DNA of 64,000 nt from Nocardioides hwasunensis. Its GTDB lineage: Bacteria > Actinomycetota > Actinomycetes > Propionibacteriales > Nocardioidaceae. Shown here piece after piece: positions 61,080-64,000 of the stretch (the stretch's first letter is position 1; each line of letters begins with the position of its first letter). A model generated the notes under the pieces. That model did no database searches. It was not told where the DNA came from and was given only the letters and a program-made list of their open reading frames with translations. The stretch is from the NCBI RefSeq assembly GCF_014779665.1, contig NZ_JACXYY010000003.1, positions 434,001-498,000 on the forward strand, read 5' to 3'. A program made the position numbers and the translations under genes.

Positions 61080-61223
61080 GACGCAGACCGGGAAGTCGGT
61101 GCAAGCCCGACACGGTCCTCGCCACTGTGACTGGGGAGCTGCGCCCGAACATGCCACTGGACTGCCAGGTCCGGGAAGGCCGGGGGCAGCGCTCGACCCA
61201 GGAGTCAGGAGACCGCCTGCGTC
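61080..61223 (+). promoter_or_regulatory. cobalamin riboswitch upstream of a ferredoxin-like gene
   Basis: The outer stem GACGCAG (61080-61086) and CTGCGTC (61217-61223) is perfect. Inside are GGGAAGTCGGTGCAAGCCCG, CGCCACTGTGACTGGGG, CCACTGG, CCGGGAAGGCCGGGGG and GACCCAGGAGTCAGGAGACC, the standard aptamer elements in order. It fills most of the 297-base gap before the gene at 61253, leaving about 30 bases to the start. TAGACT (61066-61071) is a candidate -10. Confidence 0.93.
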
Positions 61224-61252: not shown

Positions 61253-61642
61253 ATGGAGCGCACGACCTTGAACGCACCCCGCCCTGACCTGCCCACCGTC
61301 ACGGTGTGCCGCGGCTGCTGCTGCGGGACCACGAAGAAGCGACCGGGCGTCGACCACGCCGCGCGGCTCGACTCGCTGCGCGCACTGCTCGGCGACCGGG
61401 CCACGTTGCGGGTGACGGACTGCCTCGGCCCCTGCGAGCGCTCGGACGTCGTGGTGGTGAGCCCGTCCCCGACCGCGCGCCGCTCCGGGGCGCGGCCGGT
61501 CTGGCTGGGACGGCTCAACGGCCGGCACGAGTCCTCCGCGATCGCCGACTGGGTCCACGCCGGCGGACCCGGCGTCGCCGAGCTGCCCGAGAGCCTGCGC
61601 CGGGCTACGTTCCGGCCCACCTCCACCGCTGTGCAGGTCTGA
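61253..61642 (+). CDS. (2Fe-2S) ferredoxin-like thioredoxin-fold protein under B12 control
   Basis: This 129-residue protein has the thioredoxin-like 2Fe-2S ferredoxin layout. The Cys set is VTVCRGCCCGTTKK near residue 18-27 and TDCLGPCERSDVVVV near residue 65, then WLGRLNGRHESSAIADWVHA. The extra adjacent Cys makes the cluster site unclear. A cobalamin riboswitch ends about 30 bases upstream, so its product should be needed only when B12 is scarce, possibly for cobalt or corrinoid uptake. The start may be the ATG at 61253 or the TTG at 61268, both lacking a strong ribosome site. Confidence 0.8.
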   Translation: MERTTLNAPRPDLPTVTVCRGCCCGTTKKRPGVDHAARLDSLRALLGDRATLRVTDCLGPCERSDVVVVSPSPTARRSGARPVWLGRLNGRHESSAIADWVHAGGPGVAELPESLRRATFRPTSTAVQV

Positions 61643-62008: not shown

Positions 62009-62014
62009 TATACA
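62009..62014 (+). promoter_or_regulatory. candidate -10 (TATACA) for the repeat peptide operon
   Basis: TATACA is a good -10 in an otherwise GC-rich stretch, with TGGGCA 17 bases upstream as a partial -35. It would give a leader of about 60 bases before the ATG at 62084. Confidence 0.4.
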
Positions 62015-62083
62015 CGAGGGGACGGCGCTGACCGGCGCCGCCTGACCGGGCCGGACGGCCCACGTGTGCAGAGGGAGGACGAC

Positions 62084-62329
62084 ATGAGTCAGTCCGAGAG
62101 CGAAGGACCCGCCGACGGCGGTGCCGAGGGCACCCCGGGCGTGCAGGATGGTGGCGCCGACGGCGGTGCCGACTCGGGAGCCGAGGGTCCCGCCGACGGC
62201 GGTGCTGAGGGCACCCCGGGCGTGCAGGACGGCGGTGCCGACGGTGGCGCCGAGGGTCCGGCCGACGGTGGTGCGGACGGCACCCCGGGCGTCCAGGACG
62301 GTGGCGCCGACGGCGGTGCGGACAGCTAG
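62084..62329 (+). CDS. acidic repeat peptide (81 residues, three 23-residue repeats)
   Basis: I do not recognise a family. The peptide is made of three near-identical 23-residue units at residues 7-29, 34-56 and 57-79, each starting EGPADGGA and including GTPGVQDGG then ADGGA. There is no Cys, Lys, Arg, His or aromatic residue, and it is very acidic. The repeats differ mainly at synonymous sites, for instance GAAGGACCC against GAGGGTCCC, so the protein sequence is conserved. GAGGGAGGA gives a strong ribosome site for the ATG at 62084. The JmjC gene starts five bases after its stop, so the oxygenase is a likely modifying enzyme. Confidence 0.8.
   Translation: MSQSESEGPADGGAEGTPGVQDGGADGGADSGAEGPADGGAEGTPGVQDGGADGGAEGPADGGADGTPGVQDGGADGGADS
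62102..62320 (+). repeat. three 69-base repeats inside the acidic peptide gene
   Basis: The units are 62102-62170, 62183-62251 and 62252-62320, with a 12-base insertion between the first and second. They share most bases, and the differences fall mostly at third codon positions, with one Glu/Asp change in the third unit. Confidence 0.85.
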
Positions 62330-62334
62330 TCCCG

Positions 62335-63555
62335 ATGCCGCTGCATGCTGACGACGGCAGGTCCGGGACTCCCGGGCCTGCCGCCGGCCGTCCCGCTCTG
62401 GCTCGCCTCGTCGGTGACGTGGACGGCTTCGCCGAGAACACGTGGGCCCGCGGACCGCTGTTGCGCCCGTCGGCCGATCCCGACGGGTTCGACGACCTGC
62501 TCACCGCGTCCGCCGTCGACGAGCTGGTGGCCGAGCGCGGCCTGCGTACGCCGTTCCTGCGGGTCGCCAGGTCGGGGTCGACGATGGCCAACCGCGCCTT
62601 CACCGCACCGGGCGGACTCGGAGCCGGCATCGCCGACCAGGTCAGCGACGACAAGCTCACCGCGCTCTTCGCCGACGGCGCCACCCTCGTGCTGCAGGCG
62701 CTGCACCGCACCTGGCGGCCGATCATCGACTTCTGCCAGCAGCTGGCCGCCGACCTCGGTCACCCGGTGCAGGCCAACGCCTACGTCACGCCCCCGCAGA
62801 ACCAGGGCTTCGACGACCACTACGACGTGCACGACGTCTTCGTGCTCCAGATCGCGGGCCGCAAGAGGTGGTCGATCCACTCCCCCGTCCTGCCCTCGCC
62901 GCTGCGCGACCAGCCGTGGACGGACCGCCGCGACGACGTGCGCCGCGCAGCCGAGGAGGAGCCGGTGATCGAGACCGTGCTCGAGCCCGGCGACGCGCTC
63001 TACCTGCCGCGCGGCTACCTCCACTCCGCGACGGCACTCGGCGGCGTCACCATCCACCTCACCCTCGGCGTGCACAGCTGGACCCGCCACGCCGTCGCCG
63101 AGGAGCTGGTGACGCTCGCGCTGCGCAGGCTCTCCGACGACGAGGACGCCCGCGCGTCGTTGCCGCTGGGCACCACCCTCGCGCCCGACGAGATCGACGC
63201 GGAGGTCGTCGGCAAGCTGCTGCGCGAAGCGCTCGACGGTCTCGACCCTGCCGAGATCGCCGAGCAGATGCGCGCGCGGCGACGCGACACCCAGCGCGCC
63301 GCACCCGTCGGCCCGCTGGCCCAGCACGCTCTGTCGACGTCGCTCGCCGATCACACCGTCCTACGCCTGCGCGACCACCTCGACGTCACGCTCACCGAGC
63401 ACACGGTGGTCTCGCGCGCCGGGTCGGTCGACGTCGCCGACGTGCCGACCGAGGTCGTACGTCGACTCCTGGCCGGCGAGCGCGTCACTGCCGGCGAGCT
63501 CGGGACCGGCGCGGCCCGCCGCATGATCGAGGCGGGACTGGTCGTCGCCGGATGA
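62335..63555 (+). CDS. JmjC/cupin-4 family Fe(II)/2-oxoglutarate oxygenase
   Basis: This 406-residue protein belongs to the cupin_4/JmjC group related to ribosomal oxygenases such as YcfD. The Fe triad is His162 and Asp164 in DDHYDVHDVFVLQ and His230 in YLPRGYLHSAT; QIAGRKRWSIHSP follows. A C-terminal winged-helix-like domain (about 300-406) ends it. Such enzymes hydroxylate protein side chains. The repeat-peptide gene ends five bases upstream and a sucrase/ferredoxin-like gene overlaps its stop, so the peptide, not a ribosomal protein, may be its substrate (inference). Confidence 0.88.
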   Translation: MPLHADDGRSGTPGPAAGRPALARLVGDVDGFAENTWARGPLLRPSADPDGFDDLLTASAVDELVAERGLRTPFLRVARSGSTMANRAFTAPGGLGAGIADQVSDDKLTALFADGATLVLQALHRTWRPIIDFCQQLAADLGHPVQANAYVTPPQNQGFDDHYDVHDVFVLQIAGRKRWSIHSPVLPSPLRDQPWTDRRDDVRRAAEEEPVIETVLEPGDALYLPRGYLHSATALGGVTIHLTLGVHSWTRHAVAEELVTLALRRLSDDEDARASLPLGTTLAPDEIDAEVVGKLLREALDGLDPAEIAEQMRARRRDTQRAAPVGPLAQHALSTSLADHTVLRLRDHLDVTLTEHTVVSRAGSVDVADVPTEVVRRLLAGERVTAGELGTGAARRMIEAGLVVAG

Positions 63556-64000
63556 CGTTCCGCTGCTCCGACGAGGCCGCGGCACGTCGCGACCCGGTGA
63601 TCGGCACGGCTCCCCCGCAGCACGACTGGCTGCTCGTCGAGCATCCGGGTCCGTGGCCGATCACCGCGCCGTTCGGCGCCGACCTCCCCACGACCCTGCT
63701 GCGCGACCTCGGGCACCCCGAGCTGCGCACGCTCTTCGTGCGTCGACACGGTCGCGAGGGTGCTGCGGACCGGCTGACCGGGCCACGCCGGTGGTTCCGC
63801 TCGCGCGCCGGGGCGGTCCGCACCGGGCTCTGGCAGCACCCCGACGACCTGCTGGCCAGCCTCGGCGACGCGGGTGGCGAGGCCTATGCAGAGCCGCTCC
63901 TGCTCGTGTGTACCCATGGCGTCCACGACCTGTGCTGCGCCGTGAAGGGGCGCCCGGTCGCCGCCGCTCTCGCCGGCCGCTGGCCCGAGGCGACCTGGGA
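63552..64000 (+). CDS. sucrase/ferredoxin-like protein, cut by the window end
   Basis: The first 149 residues match the Suc_Fer-like (sucrase/ferredoxin-like) family, a thioredoxin-like fold that holds a 2Fe-2S cluster. LLLVCTHGVHDLCCAVKGRP contains the first Cys ligand group (C-x8-C with a third adjacent Cys). The rest, including the second Cys group and the end, lies outside the window. The ATG at 63552 overlaps the JmjC stop as ATGA. It could reduce the iron of the oxygenase or its product, which is speculation. Confidence 0.8.
   Translation, partial: MTFRCSDEAAARRDPVIGTAPPQHDWLLVEHPGPWPITAPFGADLPTTLLRDLGHPELRTLFVRRHGREGAADRLTGPRRWFRSRAGAVRTGLWQHPDDLLASLGDAGGEAYAEPLLLVCTHGVHDLCCAVKGRPVAAALAGRWPEATW

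Follow-up and report, generated by a model that had tools for sequence, protein, structure and literature searches.

The JmjC_2 (PF08007) enzymes NO66, MINA53, and YcfD are hydroxylases of His or Arg residues that place the hydroxyl group on the beta carbon (C3). In a 64,000-nucleotide stretch of the Nocardioides hwasunensis genome (contig NZ_JACXYY010000003.1 of assembly GCF_014779665.1, positions 434,001 to 498,000; hereafter, the window), a gene for a JmjC oxygenase of this kind is located between the genes for an Asp-rich repeat peptide and a Suc_Fer-like protein. The likeness to NO66, MINA53, and YcfD extends over the HxD...H motif with its accompanying Lys, a predicted helical middle part, and a predicted C-terminal winged helix, at 20–23% identity to NO66 in fold alignments. 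In contrast to these enzymes, the window JmjC protein is encoded together with its own repeat peptide, usually with a Suc_Fer partner, and its substrate would be a small acidic peptide. We consider it probable that the unit is a module resembling those of ribosomally synthesized and post-translationally modified peptides (RiPPs), in which the JmjC enzyme 3-hydroxylates the tandem Asp residues of the peptide. The proposed coupling of peptide and enzyme rests on genomics.

A JmjC enzyme with a ribosomal peptide substrate, as we infer for the window unit, has a precedent in biphenomycin biosynthesis, where the 2-oxoglutarate-dependent JmjC enzyme BipG hydroxylates ornithine in a ribosomal precursor (PMC12707348). 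However, the radical S-adenosylmethionine, multinuclear non-heme iron-dependent oxidase (MNIO), transporter, and peptidase genes of the BipG cluster are not conserved at the 21 loci carrying the window's type of peptide (A type, see below). Hydroxyaspartate has also been described on ribosomal peptides, for PesHI, an MNIO, and for SmaO (PMC13060819, PMC13097080). These are other enzymes, apparently not JmjC proteins, and PesHI acts at one site, Asp21. Furthermore, the JmjC section of an RRE-Finder update describes beta3-alpha3 folds resembling the RiPP recognition element (RRE) fused to PF08007 JmjC proteins in fish and algae, the closest bacterial homologues of which are said to sit in RiPP-like contexts (PMC12710340). 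That section names no Asp-repeat precursor, Suc_Fer partner, or actinobacterial triad, and the titles of references 40–45 of the same paper do not name a unit of the window type. PMC13381572 contains no mention of JmjC. No description of a peptide–JmjC–Suc_Fer unit was found in the open-access literature, which is weak evidence since subscription papers fall mostly outside this scope, and no open-access paper contained the string DGGADGG. The parts are of known kinds; it is the combination of an Asp-repeat peptide, an oxygenase of the ribosomal oxygenase (ROX) type, and a Suc_Fer protein that did not turn up in the open-access library searched.

The peptide, JmjC, and Suc_Fer-like genes form a tightly packed unit on the plus strand (Table 1). 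A 5-base gap separates the peptide stop from the JmjC start codon, and the JmjC stop (63553–63555) overlaps the next start codon in the sequence ATGA. The Suc_Fer-like gene extends 463 bases beyond the window end, with 149 of its 303 amino acids encoded inside. This layout agrees in its coordinates with the first-pass annotation of the same DNA, which had described an 81-amino-acid peptide with three 23-residue repeats 5 bases ahead of the JmjC gene and an overlap of the JmjC stop with a sucrase/ferredoxin-like gene. The three copies are not evenly spaced, a DSGA insert parting copies 1 and 2.

Table 1. The peptide–JmjC–Suc_Fer unit, with positions counted from the first base of the window
Feature	Position	Strand	Basis or remark
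Asp-rich repeat peptide gene, 81 aa, putative substrate/precursor	62084..62329	+	Open reading frame; kept beside JmjC in related genomes
Peptide start and stop	ATG 62084; stop 62327-62329	+	Open reading frame
Shine-Dalgarno-like AGGGAGGA, likely ribosome-binding site	62072..62079	+	4 nt ahead of the peptide ATG; by reading the sequence
Repeat copy 1, EGPADGGAEGTPGVQDGGADGGA, 23 residues	62102..62170	+	
Repeat copy 2, 23 residues, same protein as copy 1	62183..62251	+	
Repeat copy 3, 23 residues, one change, E to D	62252..62320	+	
NO66-like JmjC (PF08007) oxygenase, 406 aa, HxD...H at H162/D164/H230	62335..63555	+	
JmjC C-terminal winged-helix domain, strands then three helices, ROX-type, RRE-like	63331..63552	+	Predicted structure
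Suc_Fer-like (PF06999) putative [2Fe-2S] protein, gene start only	63552..64000	+	

The window peptide is under strong purifying selection. Repeat copies 1 and 2 differ by eight synonymous changes and no protein change, and the ratios of synonymous to nonsynonymous differences in the three copy pairs are 8:0, 8:1, and 9:1. The array has the top Tandem Repeats Finder score, 267, among 15 rows in the window. Compared with the orthologue of Nocardioides potassii, the peptide gene shows 29 synonymous and two nonsynonymous differences, a ratio of nonsynonymous to synonymous rates (dN/dS) of 0.016, whereas the dN/dS of the JmjC gene is 0.28; selection therefore constrains the low-complexity peptide far more tightly than the enzyme. 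These values bear out the earlier remark that the repeats differ mostly by synonymous changes and that selection keeps the protein sequence. With E values up to 1 allowed, Pfam and NCBIfam gave no family match for the window peptide or for four out of five differently designed peptides. The fifth, from locus L129, gave matches to NCBIfam staphylococcal adhesins (E 0.014–0.048) that were judged to reflect low complexity; their 12–14 bits fall far under cut-offs of at least 999.

The pairing of peptide and enzyme recurs across Actinomycetota. A contig scan yielded 20 JmjC relatives, the closest named homologues being those of Nocardioides, from hosts comprising Nocardioides, Microlunatus, Aeromicrobium, Brevibacterium, Haematomicrobium, Leucobacter, Brachybacterium, Streptomyces, Phycicoccus, and Rothia. 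A repeat peptide lies directly upstream of JmjC in 20/20 of these, with only its 3' part present in L027, at a contig edge. In the relatives, peptide repetitiveness and class (A, B, or C) were assigned by eye. The acidic scores of the peptides in the 20 related loci range from 0.34 to 0.43, all 20 exceeding 0.30, and a score of at least 0.30 was reached by six of the 2,414 other open reading frames (ORFs) of at least 50 codons. A JmjC match was present in 59 of 396 sampled Actinomycetota genomes (46 of 301 among those of good quality), and loci were viewed from all of them but G290, whose 19-bit match was omitted as spurious. Close JmjC homologues occur in 52 of the 396, about one in eight. 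Two of these genomes lack upstream DNA; by eye, 49 of the other 50 encode an acidic repetitive peptide, and the remaining one (G139, locus L034) encodes an acidic peptide without repeats, although L034 groups with the A types in the JmjC tree. By comparison, 11 distant JmjC genes from six genomes have neither such a peptide (0/11) nor a Suc_Fer gene (0/11).

The JmjC tree comprises 98 rows, in which long branches (L106, L112, and L102 among others) are of unsure place. The row of G400, a genome of the same genus as the window, is identical to that of Nocardioides allogilvus. One clade of 84 rows, with a support of 95/96, contains every Asp-repeat row, and an acidic repetitive peptide was recognized by eye in 78 of the 81 clade rows whose upstream DNA is long enough, this count leaving out L098 and L115 (no upstream DNA) and L085 (about 100 bases). 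The first-pass annotation had raised the prospect of the peptide being absent beside JmjC homologues. This is not the case for the clade at large, whereas it applies to the long-branch rows L106 and L112 and to the 11 distant genes, among which these two are also counted. The peptide–JmjC–Suc_Fer triads that it had suggested seeking in actinobacteria are present across the phylum sample. Additionally, 29 of 29 loci read in a search of the genus have the peptide, at least two of the genomes having already been counted. A search of the 396 genomes with the window peptide matched eight, five of them at E ≤1.8e-5 and beside JmjC; the three weaker matches (E 2e-4 to 4e-4; G139, G174, and G183) lie away from JmjC and were judged to be low-complexity chance. 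At the junction between peptide and JmjC in 50 loci, start and stop overlap by 1 or 4 nt in 25 cases, and a gap of 0–40 nt separates them in 22. The JmjC start was assigned by script to the first ATG, GTG, or TTG in frame near the peptide stop, an assignment that is doubtful for L015, L048, and L049. In viral contigs, the 20 pattern matches included no JmjC relative.

Several peptide designs accompany the enzyme. A-type peptides follow EGPADGGA-xGxPGxx-DGGADGGA, B-type peptides EGPADGGSNPxGHDGGADGTA and kin, and C-type peptides DGTDGD, DADGTD, DADASDADA, and others; rare designs are TEDDENLDAPGEHSQDTGDEP in L102 and ADGTDQGVxGGTYGPRD in L052. The acidic repeat of L102, a clade member, resembles TEDDENLDAPGEHSQDTGDEP, occurs twice, and is wholly different from the others; this locus has no Suc_Fer neighbour. 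Each A- or B-type peptide contains one to six EGPADGGA-like units (n=48), with three in 28 of the 48. The expectation of a variable copy number with EGPADGGA retained is thus borne out within these two types and fails as a general rule, and EGPADGGA was rejected as the defining motif because C-type peptides do without it. A leader-like D[DE]D[IM]xT motif stands at the start of 8 of 10 B-type and 51 of 58 C-type peptides under a strict pattern that misses several peptides visibly carrying the motif.

What the cores share is Asp. At least two Asp residues are present in 108 of 108 core tails, compared with 107 for Gly, 106 for Ala, 99 for Thr, 87 for Pro, and 26 for His. After its first unit, the L129 peptide is a DGGA run, and the L134 peptide is a long D/G/T run; with stretches limited to D/G/A and D/G/T, Asp is the sole reactive side chain common to all cores. 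If one kind of residue is modified throughout, it is likely to be Asp, judging from these sequences. Among the targets named earlier (Asp, Pro, Val, and Gln), Asp is thus favored, whereas Pro, Val, and Gln are dispensable in the D/G/A and D/G/T designs. Modification could instead fall on the His or Gln preceding DGG (A and B types), on the Gly alpha-carbon, or on Thr/Ser (C types), which we regard as unlikely. His does precede DGG in most A types from outside Nocardioides and in the B types L035–L037 and L039–L042, and NO66 and MINA53 are named histidyl-hydroxylases; nevertheless, the scarcity of core tails with two His residues (26/108) led us to reject His as a general conserved target, and the D/G/A runs of L129 and D/G/T runs of L134 also speak against this alternative.

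Peptide class also follows the enzyme. Mapped onto the JmjC tree, it requires 13 changes, against a mean of 51 after shuffling. Among 147 genomes of the genus Nocardioides, 13 encode the A-type enzyme, 60 a weaker-scoring type, and none both; a C-type peptide was present in 17 of 17 weaker-scoring-type loci read. The overlap expected under independence is 5.3 (hypergeometric P 0.0007, a figure weakened by the kinship of the genomes). Because the two enzyme types never occur together in these genomes, the A and C designs are suggested to do the same job.

The enzyme matches the Pfam family JmjC_2 at E 1.8e-28, as the one such match in the host genome. It aligns to NO66, and residues H162, D164, H230, and K177, the last at the position of the 2-oxoglutarate-binding Lys, are kept in 98 of 98 aligned homologues, distant ones included, so that the intact His162-Asp164-His230 triad reported in the first reading of the DNA is present. 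A sequence profile ranks NO66 first (E 7.7e-32), followed by MINA53, a cupin-4 protein, Bacillus subtilis YxbC, and YcfD. In the predicted model (predicted local distance difference test [pLDDT] score 85.9), the JmjC domain is followed by a helical region, the putative counterpart of the ROX dimer region, and by a winged helix at the C terminus; NO66 is the best PDB match of this model by Foldseek (E 2.0e-25). Predicted alone, the winged helix reaches a pLDDT of 89.1, with the order E10-13 E20-22 E25-27 E32-34 H40-47 H54-57 H59-67 E71-73; three strands followed by three helices, as in RREs, are thus predicted, plus two further strands. Its Z scores against MINA53 and NO66 are 7.6 and 7.0, in a range of 6.3–7.6 for ROX winged helices. 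In the Foldseek ranking, the first rows other than YcfD are the solved RREs 8t19 (rank 4, E 0.10) and 5v1v (rank 7, E 0.33), and the whole JmjC protein gave no match to the PqqD family PF05402 at E up to 1. The RRE likeness of this modeled domain is a lead, not proof.

The closeness of profile and fold to NO66 and MINA53, together with the single JmjC_2 match in the genome, would also suit a genuine ribosomal oxygenase whose substrate is a ribosomal protein, with the peptide as an unmodified regulator, mimic, or chaperone. We regard this explanation as quite improbable, although activity on a ribosomal protein in addition to the peptide is conceivable. The JmjC gene is patchy, occurring in 59 of 396 sampled genomes and in 73 of the 147 genomes of its genus; several repeat designs, each dense in Asp, would be unexpected of a regulator; and the peptide is missing at the 11 distant JmjC loci.

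The third gene of the unit encodes the Suc_Fer-like protein. The part of this protein inside the window scores 23.8 bits, under the Pfam cut-off of 34.9, whereas the whole 303-aa protein on the same contig reaches 54.9 bits (E 1.6e-14), and three full Suc_Fer-like proteins score 54.9 to 62.7 bits, over the PF06999 cut-off. A profile search found a Suc_Fer neighbour in 69 of 93 loci, all 69 within the clade and including the 14 A-type neighbours from which the profile was built; L053 has no downstream DNA, and among clade loci with such DNA the count is 69 of 83. C5, C120, H125, D126, C128, C129, E150, H153, the GGDRFA motif, and C272 are kept in 66–69 of 70 rows, and these kept Cys, His, and acidic residues fit metal binding. 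A sequence search for PDB relatives returned none at E up to 1, and one more Suc_Fer-like gene lies elsewhere in the host genome. We take Suc_Fer-like proteins to be linked to Apd1 (the Apd1-Aim32 thioredoxin-like [2Fe-2S] proteins). At the 21 A-type loci, with flanks of mostly 6 kb and ORFs of at least 80 aa, no ORF besides JmjC, Suc_Fer, and the antisense frames over them was common to more than five loci. An unmodified acidic peptide that binds a metal (iron or calcium) and feeds or protects two downstream iron proteins would account for the DxDG-type Asp density and for both neighbours being iron proteins by family, yet it is highly improbable, given that such a binder would tolerate Glu and irregular spacing whereas the window copies and the orthologue are almost invariant in protein, the cores use Asp in repeated units, and loci without Suc_Fer mostly retain the peptide.

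Under the favored explanation of Asp hydroxylation, the peptide would be made first and then be modified by the JmjC enzyme, whose gene follows directly. The N-terminal part of the peptide may be gripped by the winged helix at the C terminus of the enzyme or by a surface next to it, while the Fe(II)/2-oxoglutarate centre would move along the repeats and hydroxylate carbon 3 of Asp in D-G/D-A units. As NO66, MINA53, and YcfD act on the beta carbon, the corresponding C3 would be the expected site on Asp. The Suc_Fer-like protein, putatively a [2Fe-2S] protein with a thioredoxin fold, would probably maintain the redox state of the iron enzyme or perform a second oxidation. The resulting peptide would bear many 3-hydroxyaspartates and likely bind a metal.

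Several observations weigh against this explanation. NO66 and MINA53 are histidyl-hydroxylases, while many of these peptides lack His. The leader-like motif was recovered by the strict pattern in just 1 of 38 A-type peptides, the type found in the window. Within the clade, L034 has an acidic peptide without repeats, the long-branch rows L106 and L112 have none, and 14 of 83 loci with downstream DNA are without Suc_Fer. Agreement of peptide class with the enzyme tree would also be expected from linked inheritance alone. Foldseek on the winged helix gave no match at E <0.001. The Z scores of this domain against TbiB1, McbB, PqqD, NisB, and PbtF (4.1–4.4) are level with unrelated rows; across RiPP enzymes, the matched parts of which are presumably their recognition domains, they are 4.1–4.7, and those against unrelated chains are 4.2–5.0. 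Furthermore, among ORFs of at least 80 aa, the surroundings of the 21 A-type loci show no conserved gene for a protease or an exporter. A leader-removing protease or an exporter is usual in a RiPP cluster, although not obligatory, and without a conserved one the peptide may act intact within the cell or rely on general machinery.

For the NO66/MINA53 branch of JmjC enzymes, the unit supplies a defined candidate substrate from bacteria. It is also a compact two- or three-gene system for the study of tandem protein hydroxylation, and it may link ribosomal oxygenases with RiPP recognition domains. A wider picture can be drawn, in which the products form a widespread class of poly-3-hydroxyaspartyl peptides binding iron or another metal, the winged helix binds the leader, the A and C designs are interchangeable, and the ROX winged helix and the RRE share an origin. 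This picture is tentative, and we lean against it as a whole. If the shared origin were true, ribosomal protein hydroxylation would have arisen from peptide modification or the reverse.

Other JmjC genes beside small peptides were observed outside the Asp-repeat group. The distant JmjC genes of Streptomyces plasmids (L071, 3706-5086; L072, 3741-5080; L074, 3734-5071) have another short peptide upstream and an aldo/keto reductase downstream, and L111 and L113, from two sampled genomes, carry a distant JmjC gene with the same other peptide upstream. In all five, this peptide reads GGLL..ARR ... SDGGGTGRSDGND or near, constituting a second JmjC–peptide pair of another kind. On a Streptomyces clavuligerus plasmid, the JmjC gene of L070 (3757-5152) is preceded by a 48-aa acidic peptide that begins with LEPDEIEVIPP, contains IADxDPxDP units, and may be distantly related to the Asp-repeat peptides. 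In the Moraxella catarrhalis plasmid pLQ510 (L151, 39-4847), a JmjC/cupin gene adjoins one for a hypothetical small protein, at a locus that also encodes an HlyD adaptor and a peptidase-domain ATP-binding cassette transporter, a bacteriocin-export layout. The plasmid search for JmjC/cupin genes additionally returned 25 Escherichia records; such a gene (L150, 6432-7325) is located on small Escherichia coli plasmids, most of those listed being about 7.9 kb.

Upstream of the peptide, a riboswitch scan of the window detected a cobalamin riboswitch at 61089-61215 (95 bits), ahead of another ORF. It was set aside as a member of the unit, as JmjC and Suc_Fer are all that more than five of the 21 A-type loci share. 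A small ORF behind it (61253-61642) has a weak 2Fe-2S ferredoxin match, and a DUF6221 ORF is also present; the riboswitch and these two ORFs probably form a separate cobalamin-linked unit.

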